From NCBI GenBank assembly GCA_023138835.1, contig JAGLOP010000012.1, positions 1 to 64,000 of the forward strand: DNA of 64,000 nt. Direction: 5' to 3'. The stretch is from Arcobacteraceae bacterium. GTDB taxonomy: Bacteria > Campylobacterota > Campylobacteria > Campylobacterales > Arcobacteraceae. The notes beneath the pieces are model-generated. The model was not told the origin of the DNA. It did not search any database and saw nothing but the letters and a program-made list of their open reading frames with translations. The position numbers were made by a program, and so were the translations under genes. Of the stretch, positions 49,533 through 63,415 are shown one piece after another. The first letter of the stretch is position 1. Every line of letters begins with the position of its first letter.

Positions 49533-49626
49533 AACTAAGTAAAGGCGGTAATCGCTTTAAATATTTTCTTTTTATTAATTTGCATATAGTTTGCAAACTT
49601 AGTAAAAGTTTTTAACGATATTTAAA

Positions 49627-49660
49627 ATTGTATTATAGCTATGTCACAGTTTGCGTCACA
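49627..49660 (-). promoter_or_regulatory. TGTGAC direct-repeat promoter with no evident ORF downstream
   Basis: On the minus strand it reads TGTGAC-GCAAAC-TGTGAC, 10 nt, TACAAT (with TATAAT also 5 nt away). It points into the 3' end of ycaO, where no minus-strand gene is apparent. It may drive an antisense or small RNA, or serve the rhodanese gene at 49.8 kb in an unusual orientation. Confidence 0.5.
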
Positions 49661-49772
49661 GAAATGATACATATTTTCAACAAATTATACTGCTGTCTTC
49701 TGTGATAGTATGATTTTAGAAAGTTTTTGATATGATTTAGAAATTTATAATCAATTTAATTAAGGGGTAATA

Positions 49773-50926: not shown

Positions 50927-51047
50927 TTATAACGTCTAAATTGAAGGACGATGACCCCTCAATATATTTGCTGATTTCTTTTTATAACCACTATATTAAA
51001 GCTAATTTAGGCTTAAATACTCGCAAGGGTCACCCGTTCTCCTTCCA
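50927..51047 (-). repeat. attC site 7, left part (interrupted by the IS)
   Basis: It starts TTATAACGTCTAAATTGAAGGACGA and continues nearly identically to attC 5, up to GTTCTCCTTCCAA where the similarity stops. The missing TGTTTTGTTAGTC end lies beyond the IS at 52425-52437. It is the attC of the FNT cassette. Confidence 0.8.
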
Positions 51048-51113
51048 AGTCGCCACCTTAAAATCTACTTAATTTCTTAATTATAACCAACTAAATATAA
51101 ATTAATTTATATT

Positions 51114-52139
51114 TTAAGCAACCAAGTCATTATTATCACTTTTATCTATATATTTACCACAAGCTTTTTCATAAGTTTCAGCATCATAAATACAATTATT
51201 TTTATAAAGTGAATGTGCGATTACTATTAATTTTCTCATTACTGCTATCTGTGCTACTGTTGAATGTTTACCATTATTTTTTAATCTATTATAAAAATAT
51301 TTCATTTGTTCATTATATTTTATTGCTACCATAGTAGCCATAAACAAACTTCCTCTATATAGTTTTATACCAGCTTTAGATATTCTTGGTTTGGATTTAA
51401 CGGATGTTCCTGAGTCTTTTATAATTGGGTCTAACCCAGTTAATGATACTATTTGATTTTTATTTGCATTGGGATAACTGATAAATAAATGCACTAGTAC
51501 AATACCTGCAATTTTACCAATACCTGGTATTGTTTGTATATTTTTATATGTAAGTGATAATTTATTATCTGCTTCAATAATCTCTTTTATTTTATCTAAG
51601 ACTTCAAGCTCTTTATTTTTAAATGATTTTAATCTCTTGCTTATATCTCTAAGCGTATATTTATTACCACCTTTACAATTTAATGCTTCATAGTGATTAC
51701 TTAGTGCTACTCTTTGTTTAACAGTAAACTTATAATAACTCATAAGCTCCTTTATAGTTTCAAGCGTATCATCTATTATAGGTACTCTTATCTCACCTTC
51801 TCTAGCTATTGCAATAGCCTTAGATAACATTATGGCATCAATTTTATCACTCTTGCTTCTATGTCCTAATGCTTTTGCAAAGTTACTTGATTGTTTGGGG
51901 TTTATTATAAAAGATTTTATATTTTTTGAAGCACAAAACTTTTTAGTTAAAAATGAATAACTACCAGTAGGCTCATAAACAAAAGTAAGTTTATCTAAAT
52001 CTTTTTTATACAACTTTTTTAACTTTGAATATAAAGCTTTTAAAGCTGTAATAGTGTTATCAATCTCTAAATCTAAAGAATTGATAGAGATATGAACCGA
52101 AATACTTGCTTTACTAATATCTAATCCGATAGAATACAT
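51114..52139 (-). CDS. IS110-family DEDD transposase/recombinase
   Basis: This 341-aa protein has the RuvC-like DEDD domain at the N-terminus: GLDISKASI (D), VYEPTGSY (E) and SDKIDAIMLSKA (D..D). The C-terminal Tnp20 domain follows, with TIPGIGKIAGIVLVHLF, VSLTGLDPIIKDSGTS, and KLYRGSLFMATM, which includes the catalytic serine region. IS110 recombinases use a bridge RNA to join target and donor. The ORF looks intact, so the element may be active. Confidence 0.92.
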   Translation of the reverse strand: MYSIGLDISKASISVHISINSLDLEIDNTITALKALYSKLKKLYKKDLDKLTFVYEPTGSYSFLTKKFCASKNIKSFIINPKQSSNFAKALGHRSKSDKIDAIMLSKAIAIAREGEIRVPIIDDTLETIKELMSYYKFTVKQRVALSNHYEALNCKGGNKYTLRDISKRLKSFKNKELEVLDKIKEIIEADNKLSLTYKNIQTIPGIGKIAGIVLVHLFISYPNANKNQIVSLTGLDPIIKDSGTSVKSKPRISKAGIKLYRGSLFMATMVAIKYNEQMKYFYNRLKNNGKHSTVAQIAVMRKLIVIAHSLYKNNCIYDAETYEKACGKYIDKSDNNDLVA

Positions 52140-52424
52140 ACTTAGAACCTCACATATTAATTTATTTGAGAGTTCGTTAGGGTAAGAGTTTTACTCTTGC
52201 CTGATTTATAAAACAACGCTATACTTAATTTTACCTCATGATATTCAATCTAGCTTTCACCGATTCAGTCGCCACTCAAATTTTTAGTATAACTATCTGA
52301 CTTGGATTGAAACTAACTAGTTTTATTGTTTAAGAAAACTAGCCGTTTTACGTTTTGTCCGATATATTATATTCACTTACTCTGCTATTTATGATAGCTA
52401 AATTGCTATGTTGTTATTATATGA
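52140..52424 (-). ncRNA. candidate bridge RNA in the IS110 left end
   Basis: The 285-nt noncoding region 5' of the transposase has several hairpins (for example CTAGTTTT/AAAACTAG with a 10-nt loop and AAGAGT/ACTCTT). It contains GTGGCGACT (52267-52275, minus strand), identical to the terminal 9 nt of the opposite IS end (51048-51056), and ACAAAAC (52352-52358), matching the attC flank AACAAAACA. The order from 5' to 3' is target-like then donor-like, as in described bridge RNAs. Boundaries are not known. Confidence 0.5.
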
Positions 52425-52437
52425 TGTTTTGTTAGTC
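52425..52437 (-). repeat. attC site 7, right part
   Basis: TGTTTTGTTAGTC is the missing end of attC 7, matching the TGTTTTGTTATC end of attC 6. It lies 69 bp beyond the stop of the FNT gene, and is separated from the rest of the site by the IS. Confidence 0.7.
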
Positions 52438-52505: not shown

Positions 52506-53312
52506 CTATTTATATTTAATTTTTTTTACATGATGAGTTGAATATAATGTTAACACTGTAAATACTAACCCTCCTAATAAATTTCCTAAAACAGTTGGTA
52601 TCTCATTCCAAAAAATATAATCTGATATAGTAAAGTTACCACCCATAATTATAGAAAATGGAAATAAAAACATATTAACTATAGAATGTTCAAATCCCAT
52701 AAAAAAGAATAACATTATTGGCATCCACATTACAACAATCTTTCCTGTAACAGACGTGGTCATTACAGAACCCACAATTCCTATTGAAACCATCCATCCA
52801 CATAACATTCCTCTAATCAATATAGTAAACCAACCAAAAATTCCATGTTCAGAATATCCAATAGTTCTACTTTCTCCAATTAATGCTATTTTATTCCCTA
52901 TTATGCCTGGATCTGTTTGATATCCGTATGTAAATACAAAAGAGATCATCAATGCAATAGTTAATGAACCTAGTAAGTTTCCTAAAAATACCAAACTCCA
53001 ATTTTTCATAAGAAGTTTTAATGTTACCCCTTTTCTTTTGTCCATTAATGCAAGAGGTATCAATACAAACACGCCAGTTAATAGATCAAACCCCATTAAA
53101 TATAATATTATAAATCCTACAGGAAACAAAATAGCTCCTAACAATGGTGAACCACTTGTAATACTAACAGTAATTGCAAAAACTGCTGATAATGCTAAAA
53201 TAGCACCAGCCATATATGATCTAATCAATGTATCTTGAACAGACATAAAAACCTTTGATTCTCCAGATTCTATCATTTTCCTAACAAAGTTTTTTGGCTT
53301 TTTATAAGACAA
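52506..53312 (-). CDS. formate/nitrite transporter (FNT) family protein
   Basis: This 268-aa membrane protein has about six hydrophobic segments and the FNT family features: SYMAGAILALSAVF, LFPVGFIILYLMGFDLLTGVF, NWSLVFLGNLLGSLT and FFFMGFEHSIVNMF (with the central channel histidine). It should move formate, nitrite or a related monovalent anion. It lies between attC 6 and attC 7, so it is a cassette gene. A formate dehydrogenase-like enzyme is encoded at 9-11 kb, but no direct link is shown. Confidence 0.88.
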   Translation of the reverse strand: MSYKKPKNFVRKMIESGESKVFMSVQDTLIRSYMAGAILALSAVFAITVSITSGSPLLGAILFPVGFIILYLMGFDLLTGVFVLIPLALMDKRKGVTLKLLMKNWSLVFLGNLLGSLTIALMISFVFTYGYQTDPGIIGNKIALIGESRTIGYSEHGIFGWFTILIRGMLCGWMVSIGIVGSVMTTSVTGKIVVMWMPIMLFFFMGFEHSIVNMFLFPFSIIMGGNFTISDYIFWNEIPTVLGNLLGGLVFTVLTLYSTHHVKKIKYK

Positions 53313-53383: not shown

Positions 53384-53516
53384 GACTAACGTCTAAATTG
53401 AAGGACGAGTGGATAAAATGGCTTTAAAATTCGGTCTTTTAGATTTCTTTATGCGAAACTTAAAAGCTTGAATTATCGGCACATTACACTCGTTCTTCTT
53501 CCAATGTTTTGTTATC
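53384..53516 (-). repeat. attC site 6
   Basis: About 133 bp, from GACTAACGTCTAAATTGAAG to CTTCCAATGTTTTGTTATC. The inner arms GGACGAGTG and CACTCGTTC are complementary. It lies 16 bp past the stop of the 53.5-kb lipoprotein gene and is related to attC 1 and 2 in its central ACTTAAAAGCTT segment. Confidence 0.8.
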
Positions 53517-54134: not shown

Positions 54135-54268
54135 GATAACGGCTGAATTGAAGGACGATGACCCCTCAATATATTTGCTGACTTCTTTTTATAACCATTA
54201 TATCAAAGCCAATTTAGGCTTAAATACTCGCAGGGGTCACTCGTTCTTCTTCCAATGATTTGTTATAT
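54135..54268 (-). repeat. attC site 5
   Basis: About 134 bp, from GATAACGGCTGAATTGAAGG to CTTCCAATGATTTGTTATAT. The arms ATTGAAGGACGA and TCGTTCTTCTTCCAAT pair with the usual extrahelical mismatches, and GACCCC/GGGGTC extends the stem. It is nearly identical to the attC 7 left part. It lies 52 bp past the stop of the 54.3-kb gene. Confidence 0.82.
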
Positions 54269-55811: not shown

Positions 55812-55861
55812 TTGAGACCTCCATGATTTTAATTTTGACTAAATTAAATAGTCATATTAAA

Positions 55862-55895
55862 ATATTAACAAAAAGATGTCACAGATTGCGTCACA
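55862..55895 (-). promoter_or_regulatory. TGTGAC direct-repeat promoter of the three-gene cassette
   Basis: On the minus strand it reads TGTGAC-GCAATC-TGTGAC, 10 nt, TAATAT. It lies inside the cassette, between attC 4 and the first gene, so the cassette carries its own regulated promoter. Confidence 0.55.
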
Positions 55896-55921
55896 AAATA
55901 TGCAAATTTATTAATTCTTTG

Positions 55922-56057
55922 ATATAACGTTTGAGTTGAGAAACAAGTGTGGCTTCACAACTTAAAAATTATAATTTCTTTCAACTTTATTTAGGCTTGG
56001 AAATTAGCTATTTAAGTCGTAGGAACACTTGTTTCTCTCTCCAACGATTTGTTGTAT
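55922..56057 (-). repeat. attC site 4
   Basis: About 136 bp, from ATATAACGTTTGAGTTGAG to CTCCAACGATTTGTTGTATC. The arms GAAACAAGTGT and ACACTTGTTTC are perfectly complementary. It lies 13 bp past the stop of the 137-aa lipoprotein gene. Confidence 0.82.
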
Positions 56058-56633: not shown

Positions 56634-59600
56634 TTAGTTAAGTTCACTTGTTAAATCTTGTCTTTTTCCATCTTTTTCATAGTTCTCTGATAGTTGAATC
56701 AATAGTGATGCAACTTTTGAATGAGTATATTTTAACTTATTAGCATCTTTTCTATATACTTCTGATAATGTATATTCTTGTTTGCCACCATCATCATAAG
56801 CTCTAGTGGTAATACCTCTTAAATTTTGTTTTGCAATTAAAAATGCTGTATCTATAGTCTCATTTGAGATTTCATTTAATACATCTCTGGTTACTTCACA
56901 AGGGAAAATACCATCGTTTCCTATTGGAGACTTAGCTAAAAGTTTGCCAATTCTATCATCACCTATATTTGTTCTATCTACATTATCAAACATTTGTCTA
57001 GCTTCAAAAATCCAAGCTTTTAATTTTTCACTGTTTAGTTCATCAACATCATCATATTTATAGAATAATGATATTTTGTCTAATAAGTAATAAGCATTAC
57101 TAGCCCTATTACTTATTTGTTCTTCTGTCAATCCTTCATCTTCATCTCTTTTTTTATTTGGCTTATATGCAAAAGACACTAGTTGAACAAAAGTTTTAGG
57201 ATTAGTAATAATATCTTTTTCCCAATGTATAGGTTTGAATTGATTTAATTTTAAATACTTCCATTCTAACATTTGTATTTTAGTAAATTCTAAATCAGAA
57301 GATTGTAAAAACTTTATAATCTCAGAAATAGAACGAGAATCTAATTTTTCTTCATTTGGTTCTATTTCTATTAAAACTTTAGCTAGTAAATTTATATCAA
57401 GATTTAATTCATGTTTTTTCATCATATAAAATAAATTACTAATAAAACTTACTGCTTTCATATATTGTTTATATTTAACAAATTGCTCTATAATCCAATT
57501 AATATATGAAATATCTTTATCATCAACTCTATAATAATGATTGTTTATATTTCCCCAATATAACTTTTGTATATTTTTATTTTGCTCTTTTAATATTTCA
57601 AAAAGTATAGAATTAAACCTAAGTGATAATAAAACCTCTGATACTTGCTTGTCATTTATGTTATTTAATATTGATTTATCAAAAGGCATATTAGATATAT
57701 AACTTTTAGCACAAACTAGAAGATTAAGTTCTTCACTATTTAACCATTCAAATATCTCATTTTGATATTTATTATCAGTTGTTAAATATAATAATCGTCC
57801 TATCTCTCCAGCATATTCTATTTTTTGAATTAACAGTACTAATGAACTAAATCCATCATTTTCGATTATTTCAATAATTGCTTTCTTTCTTAACTCCAGA
57901 ACCAATTCATCATCTTTTTTATAAGACTTTACATCTTCTGATTTATAAGGTATAGGGTTTAATATATCAATACTTCCCATATTAAATAAATAAAAATATT
58001 TATCTATTAAAATATTAGGCTCTATAAAATCAAAAGCCACTTCTAGTTTATCAATTAATTCTTTTGGTAAAGACCAATCAGAATCAGAAAATTTCCTATG
58101 ACTATGTATCTTATCCCTAAGTATAGTTGATATTGATAATTTAATTTTATCATCAAATAAATTTATATCTAAGGAGATAAAAGTATTTATTATTTTAGTA
58201 TAACTATCTTTATAAAATTTATCAATATTATTAAATATATCATACCACTTTTGAGTATCTGTACCAATATTATCTAAAAGTAAATTATTAATATTTTGAT
58301 AATATAAAAATGAATCTTGCTGACTTACATCTTTTCCAATTAATTCATCCCAATCATGATATTTTGGTCTTACTATTCCTGATGTTATCATATGACTATC
58401 AGGTAAAAGTTCTAGCAATAATCTCCATGTAATATCAGGATATTTTTTAAATAAAGTATGCTCTAAAATTTGTATTTTATTTTCATAAGTTACACTACTA
58501 TAGTTAACCCAGCCTAAAAAAATATCTTTTAATGTATTAAAAGGTTGATTTCCCATATTACTTTTAATTTCTAATTTACTTAACTCTGCTAATACTAATA
58601 CAACACGAGGTAATAATTCATGATTCCAAGATATCCTCTCTAGTGCCCAAAGTAAATTACAATGAAAACATCCTCCCATATCTCCTGCATCTTCAAAAAG
58701 TTCTTGTATTTTTGTAGTAGATTGATTCTCTAATGTTTTTTCTAAAGCAGTTAAAAAACTAATTGGACTTGCTTCTGATAAAAGAGATATTTGACTTCCA
58801 TAAGAGTACCAAGCTTCAACATTTAAGTTTGTTTCAAAAAGTTCTTTTAACCAATATGTAATAGTGATATTTATATCTGATGAATATGTCATATTCTCTT
58901 TTCCAAAAACAGAAATTAAAACTAATGTATCAGCTATACTTTCACGAATAGAACCTGAGTATTTTATCTCTTTATCATATGAAAACCATCTTTCATTAGC
59001 TGTTATATTCCAAGTTGGATCTATTTCTTTAAATATATCAAGTAAAATAGGTTTTAATTTATCAATTTGTGTGATAGATATTTTATGAGAAATTAAATCC
59101 CATAAATTGATTTTTGAAATTACTTGCCATACATTACCAACTAATCTTATTGGTGTGTTTTGTTCTTCTTTTAATAAAGTGAGATTTTTTTCAAATTCAT
59201 CATAGGATAATTCAGATAGTGTTTCAATAATTTTTATATCATCTTTATCTAAACGATACCAACTATTAATAAATAGAATTGTTGATAAGATATTTATATC
59301 ATAGTGATTTACCCAATCAGGGATAACTCTTTCATTTGGTTTTAATAAAGGGTGTCTAATTATAGCATGTAAAAAACCTTTAGTTTCATCATATATCTTC
59401 CAAGCATCATCATGACTAAATCCCATTTCTTCTAAAGTAGCGACCTTTTGACTTTTTTTAATTTTTAATAATTTTACAATTTTATGTGATTTATCTTGCA
59501 TACCTATTGTATCTTTAGCTTCTATAACAAAGTGACCATTAGATATTGCTGTACCAATATTATTGGGAATAAAATCTTTATAAATAAGTATTAAGTTAGA

Positions 59601-60362
59601 ATCACTTTGAACTAATTCATCCCAAGACTCTTGGCTTGTAACTATAATAACTTTAGATGAAAATTGAATCTTATCTTTTAAAGATGCCAAAATAAAATCA
59701 TAACTTTCTTGTTTAGTTGTTGATACAATTATGATTTTAGATGGTTTTTTATTTAATAAATCTAATAATCTAGTTATTTCATTTTCTCTTGATTTTAATA
59801 CTAAATTTGTACTAAGATTTATATTGGTTTGAGAAGACCAGTTTTCAAAAGATTGTTCTATGTCAAAACTATTTAAAGGTCGCTTACCTATAATCCTTGC
59901 AAACCATCCATGAACAGCAGGAGTTAAAGTAAGCCATAGTTCTAAATCATCAGAATTTATACCTTTAACTTCTTTCCACTTTAATTCTTTATTTTTTTCA
60001 TTTTCAAAATCATTTTTTTTAGCCCATGTTTTTGTTGTAGCAAATATGTATGAAAGATTTTTATCAGATGAATTATCAGTTCTTTTTTTATAATCATCTT
60101 CTGCTTTTTTGTTAATATTTACATTTGTTCCAAATTCCCAAACAGATTTACCATCTGGTATAAAAGAATTACCTTTTTTTACTGTTAAAACACCATCCCA
60201 ACCACCGGTTAATATACTATCACCTGATGGAATATGTATATACTTTGGTTCAACTGTTGCCATTATTAATTTTTTAATTAATAGAGGTAATATTTCTTGA
60301 GACTCTCTCGTGTGTGATGAACTCCATTTGTCAATTTCATTTGATGTAACATGCCAACTCAT
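56634..60362 (-). CDS. giant 1242-aa cassette protein, candidate defence effector
   Basis: No named family. The N-terminus (residues about 35-155) has GGWDGVLTV, GKSVWEFGTN and YIFATTKTWAKK, a D...E pattern reminiscent of restriction-endonuclease-like folds, though the expected ExK lysine is not present. Residues about 160-330 look like a degenerate P-loop region (KIIIVSTTKQESYDFI) without a Walker A motif, followed by an EMGFSHDDAWKIYDETKGFLHAIIRHPLL segment. The remaining 850 residues are a helical repeat-like region with HCNLLWALERISWN. It is alone in its cassette. Large size, layout and setting fit an antiphage protein, but this is inference. Confidence 0.55.
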   Translation of the reverse strand: MSWHVTSNEIDKWSSSHTRESQEILPLLIKKLIMATVEPKYIHIPSGDSILTGGWDGVLTVKKGNSFIPDGKSVWEFGTNVNINKKAEDDYKKRTDNSSDKNLSYIFATTKTWAKKNDFENEKNKELKWKEVKGINSDDLELWLTLTPAVHGWFARIIGKRPLNSFDIEQSFENWSSQTNINLSTNLVLKSRENEITRLLDLLNKKPSKIIIVSTTKQESYDFILASLKDKIQFSSKVIIVTSQESWDELVQSDSNLILIYKDFIPNNIGTAISNGHFVIEAKDTIGMQDKSHKIVKLLKIKKSQKVATLEEMGFSHDDAWKIYDETKGFLHAIIRHPLLKPNERVIPDWVNHYDINILSTILFINSWYRLDKDDIKIIETLSELSYDEFEKNLTLLKEEQNTPIRLVGNVWQVISKINLWDLISHKISITQIDKLKPILLDIFKEIDPTWNITANERWFSYDKEIKYSGSIRESIADTLVLISVFGKENMTYSSDINITITYWLKELFETNLNVEAWYSYGSQISLLSEASPISFLTALEKTLENQSTTKIQELFEDAGDMGGCFHCNLLWALERISWNHELLPRVVLVLAELSKLEIKSNMGNQPFNTLKDIFLGWVNYSSVTYENKIQILEHTLFKKYPDITWRLLLELLPDSHMITSGIVRPKYHDWDELIGKDVSQQDSFLYYQNINNLLLDNIGTDTQKWYDIFNNIDKFYKDSYTKIINTFISLDINLFDDKIKLSISTILRDKIHSHRKFSDSDWSLPKELIDKLEVAFDFIEPNILIDKYFYLFNMGSIDILNPIPYKSEDVKSYKKDDELVLELRKKAIIEIIENDGFSSLVLLIQKIEYAGEIGRLLYLTTDNKYQNEIFEWLNSEELNLLVCAKSYISNMPFDKSILNNINDKQVSEVLLSLRFNSILFEILKEQNKNIQKLYWGNINNHYYRVDDKDISYINWIIEQFVKYKQYMKAVSFISNLFYMMKKHELNLDINLLAKVLIEIEPNEEKLDSRSISEIIKFLQSSDLEFTKIQMLEWKYLKLNQFKPIHWEKDIITNPKTFVQLVSFAYKPNKKRDEDEGLTEEQISNRASNAYYLLDKISLFYKYDDVDELNSEKLKAWIFEARQMFDNVDRTNIGDDRIGKLLAKSPIGNDGIFPCEVTRDVLNEISNETIDTAFLIAKQNLRGITTRAYDDGGKQEYTLSEVYRKDANKLKYTHSKVASLLIQLSENYEKDGKRQDLTSELN

Positions 60363-60381: not shown

Positions 60382-60515
60382 ATATAACGACTGAAGTGAG
60401 GAACACGGCGATTTAACGGCTTGATAGTTTGCTATTTTAAATATCTTTATGCGACACTTAAAAGCTTGAATTATTGCCGTTGTAGCCTTGTTTCTCCTCC
60501 TCTGTTTTGCTATAC
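60382..60515 (-). repeat. attC site 2
   Basis: About 134 bp, from ATATAACGACTGAAGTGAGG to CCTCTGTTTTGCTATAC. The core at one end is GCTATAC, not GTTATAC, a change of the conserved GTT that may weaken it. The arms AGTGAGGAACA and TTGTTTCTCCTCC pair. The stop codon of the 91-aa gene lies inside the site. Confidence 0.75.
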
Positions 60516-60800: not shown

Positions 60801-60933
60801 TATAACACTTGACTTGAGGAACAAGTGGCTGAAACGCCTTGAAACTCTAATCTTTAAAGTCTATCTAATCGACACTTAAAAGCTTAGAATTTCCGCACTT
60901 TACACTTGTTTCTCCTCTTAGGATTTGTTAGTC
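60801..60933 (-). repeat. attC site 1
   Basis: About 133 bp, from TATAACACTTGACTTGAGG to CTCTTAGGATTTGTTAGTC. The arms GAGGAACAAGTG and CACTTGTTTCTCC are complementary. It lies 41 bp past the stop of the DUF805 gene and is the outermost attC on this side. Confidence 0.82.
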
Positions 60934-61795: not shown

Positions 61796-61826
61796 TAGAA
61801 TCTTCCTTTTTATTATGATAATTAAA

Positions 61827-61860
61827 ATTATATTGTAACTGCGTCACAGTTAGCGTCACA
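61827..61860 (-). promoter_or_regulatory. TGTGAC direct-repeat promoter of the DUF805 gene
   Basis: On the minus strand it reads TGTGAC-GCTAAC-TGTGAC, 10 nt, TATAAT. The DUF805 start codon lies 32 nt after the -10 box. It is one of four copies with fixed spacing. Confidence 0.6.
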
Positions 61861-62041
61861 GAAATAATAAATTTGTAAATTTATACATTCTTTATAAATC
61901 CGATAATTCCTATTTAAATTAAAAAAACATTGCAATTTGACATACTTTCTAAATAAATGAATATTTTTAGATACTATTTGAATGTAAGGTTTATATTTTT
62001 GATAGTAAAAGTCAAAATGATAGTAAATTAGTATAAAATAA

Positions 62042-62076: not shown

Positions 62077-62550
62077 GTGAAAATATTAGGAATAGACCCC
62101 GGTACCATTAATTGTGGTTATGCGATTTTGGATGTGACGAACAGGAAGCCAAAGTTGATAGAAGCGGGATTGATTAAAATGAAAAGCAGGATACTTCAAG
62201 AGCAAATTGTAGAATTGGTTGAGGGATTGGATTTAATTCTTTCTAAACATACTATAGATGAAGTAGCCATTGAGGATATGTTTTTTGCACACAATCCAAA
62301 ATCAGTGATAAAGCTTGCTCAATTTAGAGGAGCGATGAGTTTAAAGATACTTCAAGAGCTGGGCAATTTTAGTGAATATACACCTTTGCAAGTTAAAAAA
62401 GCGGTTACTGGAAATGGAAAATCTACAAAAGAACAGGTAGCTTTTATGGTAAAAAGATTATTAAATTTAAAGCAGGAGATAAAGCCATTGGATATAACTG
62501 ATGCAATTGCGGTAGCTTTAACCCACGCACAAAGACAAAAATGCAGTTAG
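62077..62550 (+). CDS. ruvC: Holliday junction resolvase RuvC
   Basis: This 157-aa endonuclease resolves four-way junctions with RuvAB. The acidic active site is visible in [27 protein letters not shown] and [14 protein letters not shown]. The GTG start fits the standard family N-terminus. It marks the core-genome border of the cassette region. A bidirectional terminator follows. Confidence 0.95.
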
Positions 62551-62572
62551 TTTAAATTTTTGAGCATAAAAA

Positions 62573-62600
62573 AAGGTAGGAATAAATTTTCCTACCTTTT
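62573..62600. terminator. bidirectional terminator between ruvC and rpsR
   Basis: An AAAAGGTAGGA/TCCTACCTTTT stem with an 8-nt loop and A/T runs on both sides lies between the converging ruvC and rpsR genes, so it can end both transcripts. Confidence 0.92.
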
Positions 62601-62616
62601 TTATTTTGATTTAGAA

Positions 62617-62877
62617 TTAGCTTCTAGCGTAAGCTGACTCTGCCATGTTATGAGTATTTACGATATATGGTACAAGTGCCATATGTCTTGCTCTTTTAAT
62701 AGCAACTTCAACTTCTTCTTGCATTCTTTTAGAAGTACCTGTAAGTCTTCTAGGCATAATCTTACCTCTTTCACTCATTGAAATCTTTAAAAGATCTAAA
62801 TCTTTATAATCAATTCCGTCTAATTTCATTGCACTGTATTTACAATATTTTTTTGCGAATCTTCTTCTTTCAGCCAT
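62617..62877 (-). CDS. rpsR: 30S ribosomal protein S18
   Basis: The start is the ATG at 62877 ([16 protein letters not shown]), preceded by AAGGATAA; the longer track start is spurious. The 86-aa product has the S18 core [28 protein letters not shown]. It binds 16S rRNA next to S6. It is the third gene of rpsF-ssb-rpsR. Confidence 0.96.
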
Positions 62878-62908
62878 TTTATTATCCTTGAATTTTATGA
62901 ATAAATTC

Positions 62909-63415
62909 CTAAAAAGGAATTTCATCCGTATCTATATCTATTTCTGGTATCTTATGCTCTGGTTGTACAGGAGCATTTTGTTGCATACCGCCTTGAGGTT
63001 GATTGTATTGTTGTTGAGGTGCTTGATTGTATTGTTGCCCAGATGCCGGTTGATTATATCCACCAGAATTCTGCATATTATTACTATCAGCTTTTGAATC
63101 TAAAAATTTAAAATTCTCAACTCTTAATGTATGGTTACTTCTGTTGCTACCATCTTGAGCAGTCCATCTGTTTAAAACAAGACGACCTTCAAGCATAACT
63201 TTAGAACCTTTTCTAACATACTGATTTAAAATCTCAGCTTGTTTACCAAATACATCAAAATCTAAAAAGCAAACTTCTTCTTTTTGTTCACCTGTTTGTG
63301 TTTTGTATTTATGACTTGTAGCAATCGCACTTTTTGCAATTGCAGCACCACTTGGGATATATTTTAATTCAATATCTCTTGTTAAGTTTCCAATCATTAT
63401 TACTTTATTATACAT
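62909..63415 (-). CDS. ssb: single-stranded DNA-binding protein
   Basis: This 168-aa protein has the OB-fold N-terminus ([23 protein letters not shown]), a Gln/Asn/Gly/Pro-rich linker and the acidic C-terminal tip DTDEIPF that contacts partner proteins. It protects single-stranded DNA in replication and repair. It lies between rpsF and rpsR with 6 bp spacing to rpsF. Confidence 0.97.

Follow-up and report, generated by a model that had tools for sequence, protein, structure and literature searches.

An IS110-group insertion sequence in an integron attC site of an Arcobacteraceae bacterium, with a predicted bridge RNA whose guides match the attC end

The window analyzed here is a 64,000-nt stretch (positions 1 to 64,000 of contig JAGLOP010000012.1, assembly GCA_023138835.1) from an Arcobacteraceae bacterium, a member of the Campylobacterota in the same family as Arcobacter, and it carries an array of gene cassettes with integron attC sites. 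One of these sites is interrupted by a complete insertion sequence (IS) of the IS110 group, 1,377 bp in length (51048-52424, minus strand), that has a core T at both termini. A hidden Markov model (HMM) built from the five intact attCs of the window identified six attC sites on the contig (C4), all within the window, with TAAC/GTTA boxes, paired arms, and folds; the interrupted site was recognized at 50930-51048 (E=3.8e-18). Since the neighboring genes run on the minus strand and every attC lies near the 3' end of one of them, attCs were read on that strand, which places the IS at the gene-proximal R''/L'' end and co-directional with the cassette genes. The L''-loop-L'-R' part of the interrupted attC occupies 50930-51047 and its R'' part (TAACAAAACA) 52425-52434 (both minus strand), and the gene of this cassette, as judged by position and strand, is probably the formate/nitrite transporter at 52506-53312 (minus strand).

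The initial annotation had described an attC broken by an IS and resuming 1.4 kb away, and both the attC HMM and the paralogue sequence agree with it. The interrupted attC ends at CTTCCAA and picks up again at 52424 as TGTTTTGTTAGTC; because the paralogous attC at 53387-53515 reads CTTCCAATGTTTTGTTATC, both boundaries can be read directly, and comparison with the intact attCs and with relatives of the element established them at 51048 and 52424. On the minus strand, the IS splits attC at TAACAAAACA^TTGGAAG (caret, point of insertion), giving a left junction of GACTAACAAAACA/TCATATAATAAC and a right junction of AAGGTGGCGACT/TGGAAGG. Intact attC paralogues of the array read TAACAAAACATTGGAAG and TAACAAATCATTGGAAG, and the empty site is therefore TAACAAAACATTGGAAG, with a single T common to both ends. 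The right end of the element, AAGGTGGCGACT (51048-51059, minus strand), consists of the left donor half and a CT core; as the target core is AT, T alone is common to both cores in this insertion. The junction of the excised, circular element is predicted to read GGTGGCGACT-CATATAATAA. No subterminal inverted repeat of ≥10 bp was found in the outer 60 bp, where the best end-to-end match was 8/9.

The element encodes a 341-aa IS110 transposase/recombinase (51114-52139, minus strand; DEDD_Tnp_IS110 and Transposase_20), for which PF01548 and PF02371 both scored above cut-off, as did NF033542. Its best solved relative is the IS621 recombinase (8wt6; E=7e-22), and D7, E56, D98, D101, and S243 lie at IS621 active-site positions; E, D, D, and S were placed by alignment with 8wt6, and the first D, which falls outside the printed alignment, by the GLDIS motif. 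No close relatives of the transposase were found in plasmid and viral collections; DNA patterns for attC-IS junctions were matched in viral contigs, with no viral transposase relative found. The gene is preceded by 285 nt of non-coding DNA and followed by ~66 nt up to the right terminus.

The 285-nt upstream region (52140-52424, minus strand) encodes a predicted bridge RNA. We aligned 28 homologous upstream regions, derived a structure with RNAalifold, and took out three guide-guide pairs before counting. The comparison showed a strongly covarying, conserved structure of 39 pairs in six helices, with 96.0% of cells paired vs. 80.0% in shuffles. When the 3' side was slid by 1-3 columns, pairing fell to 29-39% of cells. 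Two-sided (i.e., compensatory) changes occurred in 32 of the 39 pairs, and none of 500 shuffles reached any of five measures. The single-sequence fold of the RNA was weakly better than shuffles, so that the evidence is carried by the alignment; likewise, no Rfam family was matched at threshold within the window, and the evidence is therefore the covariation model built in this analysis, which had one match in the genome (E=6.8e-37). Two internal loops occupy the positions of the target- and donor-binding loops of IS621. In the first, bounded by helices 61-63/128-130 and 77-86/105-115, ACAAAACGT is exposed 5' and TCCAAGT 3'; in the second, bounded by helices 144-148/202-206 and 161-167/179-186, the exposed segments are GTGGCGACT and ATATCATGAG. 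A TATAAT hexamer near the left terminus (52416-52421, minus strand), found in many relatives, resembles a -10 element and as a promoter would start the RNA near its 5' stem-loop, ATAGCAATTTAGCTAT (52394-52409, minus strand). A further hairpin, GGCAAGAGT...ACTCTTACC (52181-52201, minus strand; 7 covarying pairs), lies between the bridge RNA and the gene.

The exposed stretches correspond to four guides, all on the minus strand. The left target guide, ACAAAACGT (52350-52358), matches its target ACAAAACAT with eight identical positions and one G.T wobble, and the right target guide, TCCAAGT (52300-52306), has the reverse complement ACTTGGA, the right side of the target being TTGGA. The left donor guide, GTGGCGACT (52267-52275), exactly repeats the right-end sequence of the element (51048-51056), and the right donor guide, ATATCATGAG (52235-52244), pairs with the left end CTCAT. 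The initial annotation had proposed donor and target guides from the 9-nt copy of the other terminus, which proved exact, and from the ACAAAAC shared with the attC flank, which lies inside ACAAAACGT and exceeds chance by the tests given below; it had thus found the two left guides and missed the right target guide and the right donor guide.

These matches were evaluated by permutation, comparing the guides of each element with its own flanks or ends and with those of other elements (22-29 elements). In 20,000 shuffles per test, the observed sum was never reached for the left target guide (z=10.7; 27 pairs), the right target guide (z=7.3; 29 pairs), the left donor guide (z=6.6; 22 distinct pairs), or the right donor guide (z=5.4 over 6 nt and z=6.0 over 4 nt; 24 distinct pairs), and the target tests held without the attC lineage (z=9.2, left; z=5.5, right). 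Exact matches to the left target guide occurred in L097 (TATGAAACT) and L036 (TGCGGAACT), right flanks matched their guides in L017 (ACTCCCAC) and L041 (ACTGTTTG), and the left ends CTCAT, CTCGT, and CTTAT were accompanied by the guides ATGAG, ACGAG, and ATAAG, respectively. In the 2.1-Mb genome, the guide-specified target ACAAAWCNTTGGA occurs four times, every time at an attC end, and a reversed control pattern once. Two independent tests, covariation and guide-DNA pairing, thus identify the 285-nt region as a bridge RNA at the level of sequence.

The order of the guides also bears on whether the element belongs to the described IS1111-attC group, which is of the same superfamily and has the same kind of target (PMC11187229). 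In the RNA, the left target guide precedes the right one, i.e., the bottom-strand match is 5' of the top-strand match, which is the IS110 order. Moreover, the long non-coding region is upstream and not downstream of the gene, the outer 60 bp lack the inverted repeat, and IS621, the best solved relative, is of the IS110 group. Assignment to the IS1111-attC group is therefore very improbable.

Sister elements in metagenome-assembled genomes of Campylobacterota have flanks of the type TAACAANNNN^TTGGA. For two copies in one genome (G042a and G042b), the HMM recognized an attC remnant up to column 117-118 of 129 (E=5.9e-19 and 4.6e-20), the same extent as in the window. Flanks of attC type were also found in L002, L003, L004, L020, L026, L207, and both G089 copies; L''...L' arms are present on the right flank of G143/L020 and L003, L004 is cut by a contig end, and only the left side is visible in L002, L026, and L207. 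The attC-guided elements form one clade (support 1.000), and comparison among them argues firmly that the lineage is specific for attC. The two G089 copies have TGCTAGT as right guide, and the DNA to the right of these copies reads CTAGCA in place of CTTGGA, with TAACAA retained on the left; by this comparison, the right target guide has switched (TCCAAGT to TGCTAGT) together with the right target. A simple attC stem score on right flanks did not separate attC from non-attC flanks, whereas the window attC HMM separated close relatives. In L002, an attC-like, G+C-rich inverted repeat, TTTTAACGGGGGCGCGGG...CCCGCGCCCCCGTTGTG, stands in place of the right end (~2430-2560), and L031, L060, and L181 each have two right ends close in succession, as if the site beside the right end had been struck again.

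We consider it highly probable that this is an IS110-group element whose upstream two-loop bridge RNA carries guides aimed at the R''/L'' end of attC and which moves by IS621-type recombination. In IS621, donor and target are each bound by one of the two loops of the bridge RNA; cleavage of the top strands beside the core is followed by strand exchange and by resolution of the Holliday junction (PMC11208160, PMC11208158). Here, the donor-binding loop would pair with the ends of the excised element, once joined, and the target-binding loop with TAACAA-AACN^TTGGA, the conserved R''/L'' attC end; the recombinase would then join donor and target and swap strands at the core as in IS621, so that the element enters attC at a single point and in a single orientation. 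By analogy with IS621, the RNA would be synthesized, a circular intermediate formed, and strands exchanged by the same chemistry. If each product keeps its top-strand core, the target core should be found at the left junction and the donor core at the right one; the left junction indeed carries the target core, AT in the window and GT in G042a, and the right junction carries the donor core, CT.

Several observations weigh against this interpretation. The guide match at the core of the window insertion is imperfect (donor CT, guide GT/CT, target AT), and only one side can be seen in several sister copies that are broken or lie at the end of a contig. The left flank of L194, TTTACAAACTC, is not clearly attC and its right end is lost, so this copy may be an insertion outside attC, the one possible exception to the site type that the sisters share. 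The shuffles preserve composition and ignore relatedness, a concern that independent insertions across genomes reduce but do not remove. The IS is also present as a single copy in its genome, and this, together with the shortness of the guides and the A+T-richness of the DNA, would fit an ordinary IS110 element that entered attC by chance and whose guide matches are coincidental. Against such coincidence stand the guide-DNA shuffle tests, the repeated occurrence of sister copies in attC at the same column, and the confinement of the genome-wide target pattern to attC ends, and we regard it as extremely unlikely. The recombinase might instead respond chiefly to the shape of attC, folded or cruciform, the linear guide match being secondary, as attC folds into a hairpin and some relatives also lie beside inverted repeats; the right flank of L016, for example, adjoins a long inverted repeat, TGACCTTATGCAC...GTGCGTAAGGTCA, so that palindromic repeats may be the targets of other guides in the family. 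However, relatives of the same architecture target hairpin-free sites in line with their own guides, and the right guide and right target of G089 changed together, which makes guidance by shape improbable. Recognition by the guides of a bridge RNA, as the initial annotation had suspected, is supported by the covarying structure and by the sister copies in attC; neither of the two contrary outcomes named in that annotation, lack of a conserved RNA structure and insertions at unrelated sites, was observed, with L194 as a possible exception.

A second lineage appears to be directed to the opposite end of attC. The guides of L012 and L027 are ATAACGGCT (ATAACGGTT in L027) and, reverse-complemented, CTGAATT, and the left flanks of both read TAACGAC. 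The empty site of L012, TAACGAC^TGAATATAAAAATATGTTACCC...GGGTAACATATTTTTTTACTATGTTTTGTTATAC, is attC-like and was struck at the R' end; the region concerned lies around 1128-2700. L011/L033 have a similar right flank, and L011 groups with L012 in a clade of their own (support 1.000). Since two or three insertions are involved, the evidence is weaker than for the first lineage. It seems reasonably likely that IS110-group elements in Campylobacterota have repeatedly been guided by RNA into attC sites, that attC guides evolved on two or more occasions within one clade and were directed at opposite ends (R'', TAACAAAACN^TTGGA; R', TAACGRC^TGAATT), and that guides follow attC subtypes, as in G089. 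From their guides, L012 should target TAACGACTGAAT and G089 should target TAACAANNNCTAGCA.

The five intact attCs of the array, all on the minus strand, lie at 53387-53515 (which holds the guide-specified target ACAAAACATTGGA), 54137-54266 (over 90% identical to the interrupted attC), 55925-56054, 60385-60512, and 60803-60930. The stretches 50929-51048 and 54136-54255 are 93% identical, loop included, which suggests that a cassette end was recently duplicated or shared. A substitute R'' box supplied by the right end of the IS was considered and ruled out, there being no TAAC at the right distance from L''; loss of R'' would impair the interrupted attC. No IntI integrase scored above cut-off in the assembly (86.6% complete); IntI does occur elsewhere in the genus and in 16 of 104 genomes of the family, including G042 and G089, which carry sister copies of the IS. 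A second array of three attCs is found in the same genome on contig C12 (L217; 637-765, 1401-1525, and 2757-2883). The array in the window is flanked by 64-nt direct repeats (49609-49672 and 61809-61872; 81% identical) that contain TGTCACAG..GCGTCACAG, with a related copy within the array at 55857-55898. Also inside the array is an open reading frame of 1,242 aa (56634-60362), which has no Pfam match and is unusually large for a cassette gene, and the host genes ruvC, rpsR, and ssb adjoin the array (62077-63415).

Insertion of the IS1111-attC group into attC was reportedly described by Tetu and Holmes in 2008 and by Post and Hall in 2009. Targeting of attC is known for the IS1111 elements ISKpn4, ISPst6, and ISPa25, in which the RNA is downstream and the guide order reversed (PMC11187229); the attC-targeting ISs of other phyla to which the initial annotation referred belong to the IS1111 group and not to the IS110 group with its upstream RNA. 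In the literature searched, with subscription papers and ISfinder outside the search, no IS110-group element with attC as its target was described. The present family joins two systems usually studied apart, in that guides of IS110 recombinases evolved for integron sites independently of the IS1111-attC group. Because guide, target, donor end, and donor guide co-vary across its ~30 elements, the rules of specificity can be read and tested, and the family represents a natural series of reprogramming; by removing the R'' box, such insertions may also freeze gene cassettes. With the IS1111-attC group the element shares RNA-guided insertion at one attC end but none of the downstream RNA, the reversed guide order, or the subterminal inverted repeats of ~11-13 bp. 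ISEc21, a seekRNA element of the IS110 group (PMC11187229), shares the upstream non-coding region and the bottom-strand match 5' of the top-strand match and differs in target. Relative to IS621 and other IS110-group bridge-RNA elements (PMC11208160, PMC11208158), the guides are set to the attC end, the hosts are Campylobacterota, and the core of this insertion is AT. The mechanism appears to be of the known IS621 type, while the choice of target and its repeated evolution in Campylobacterota appear to be new.
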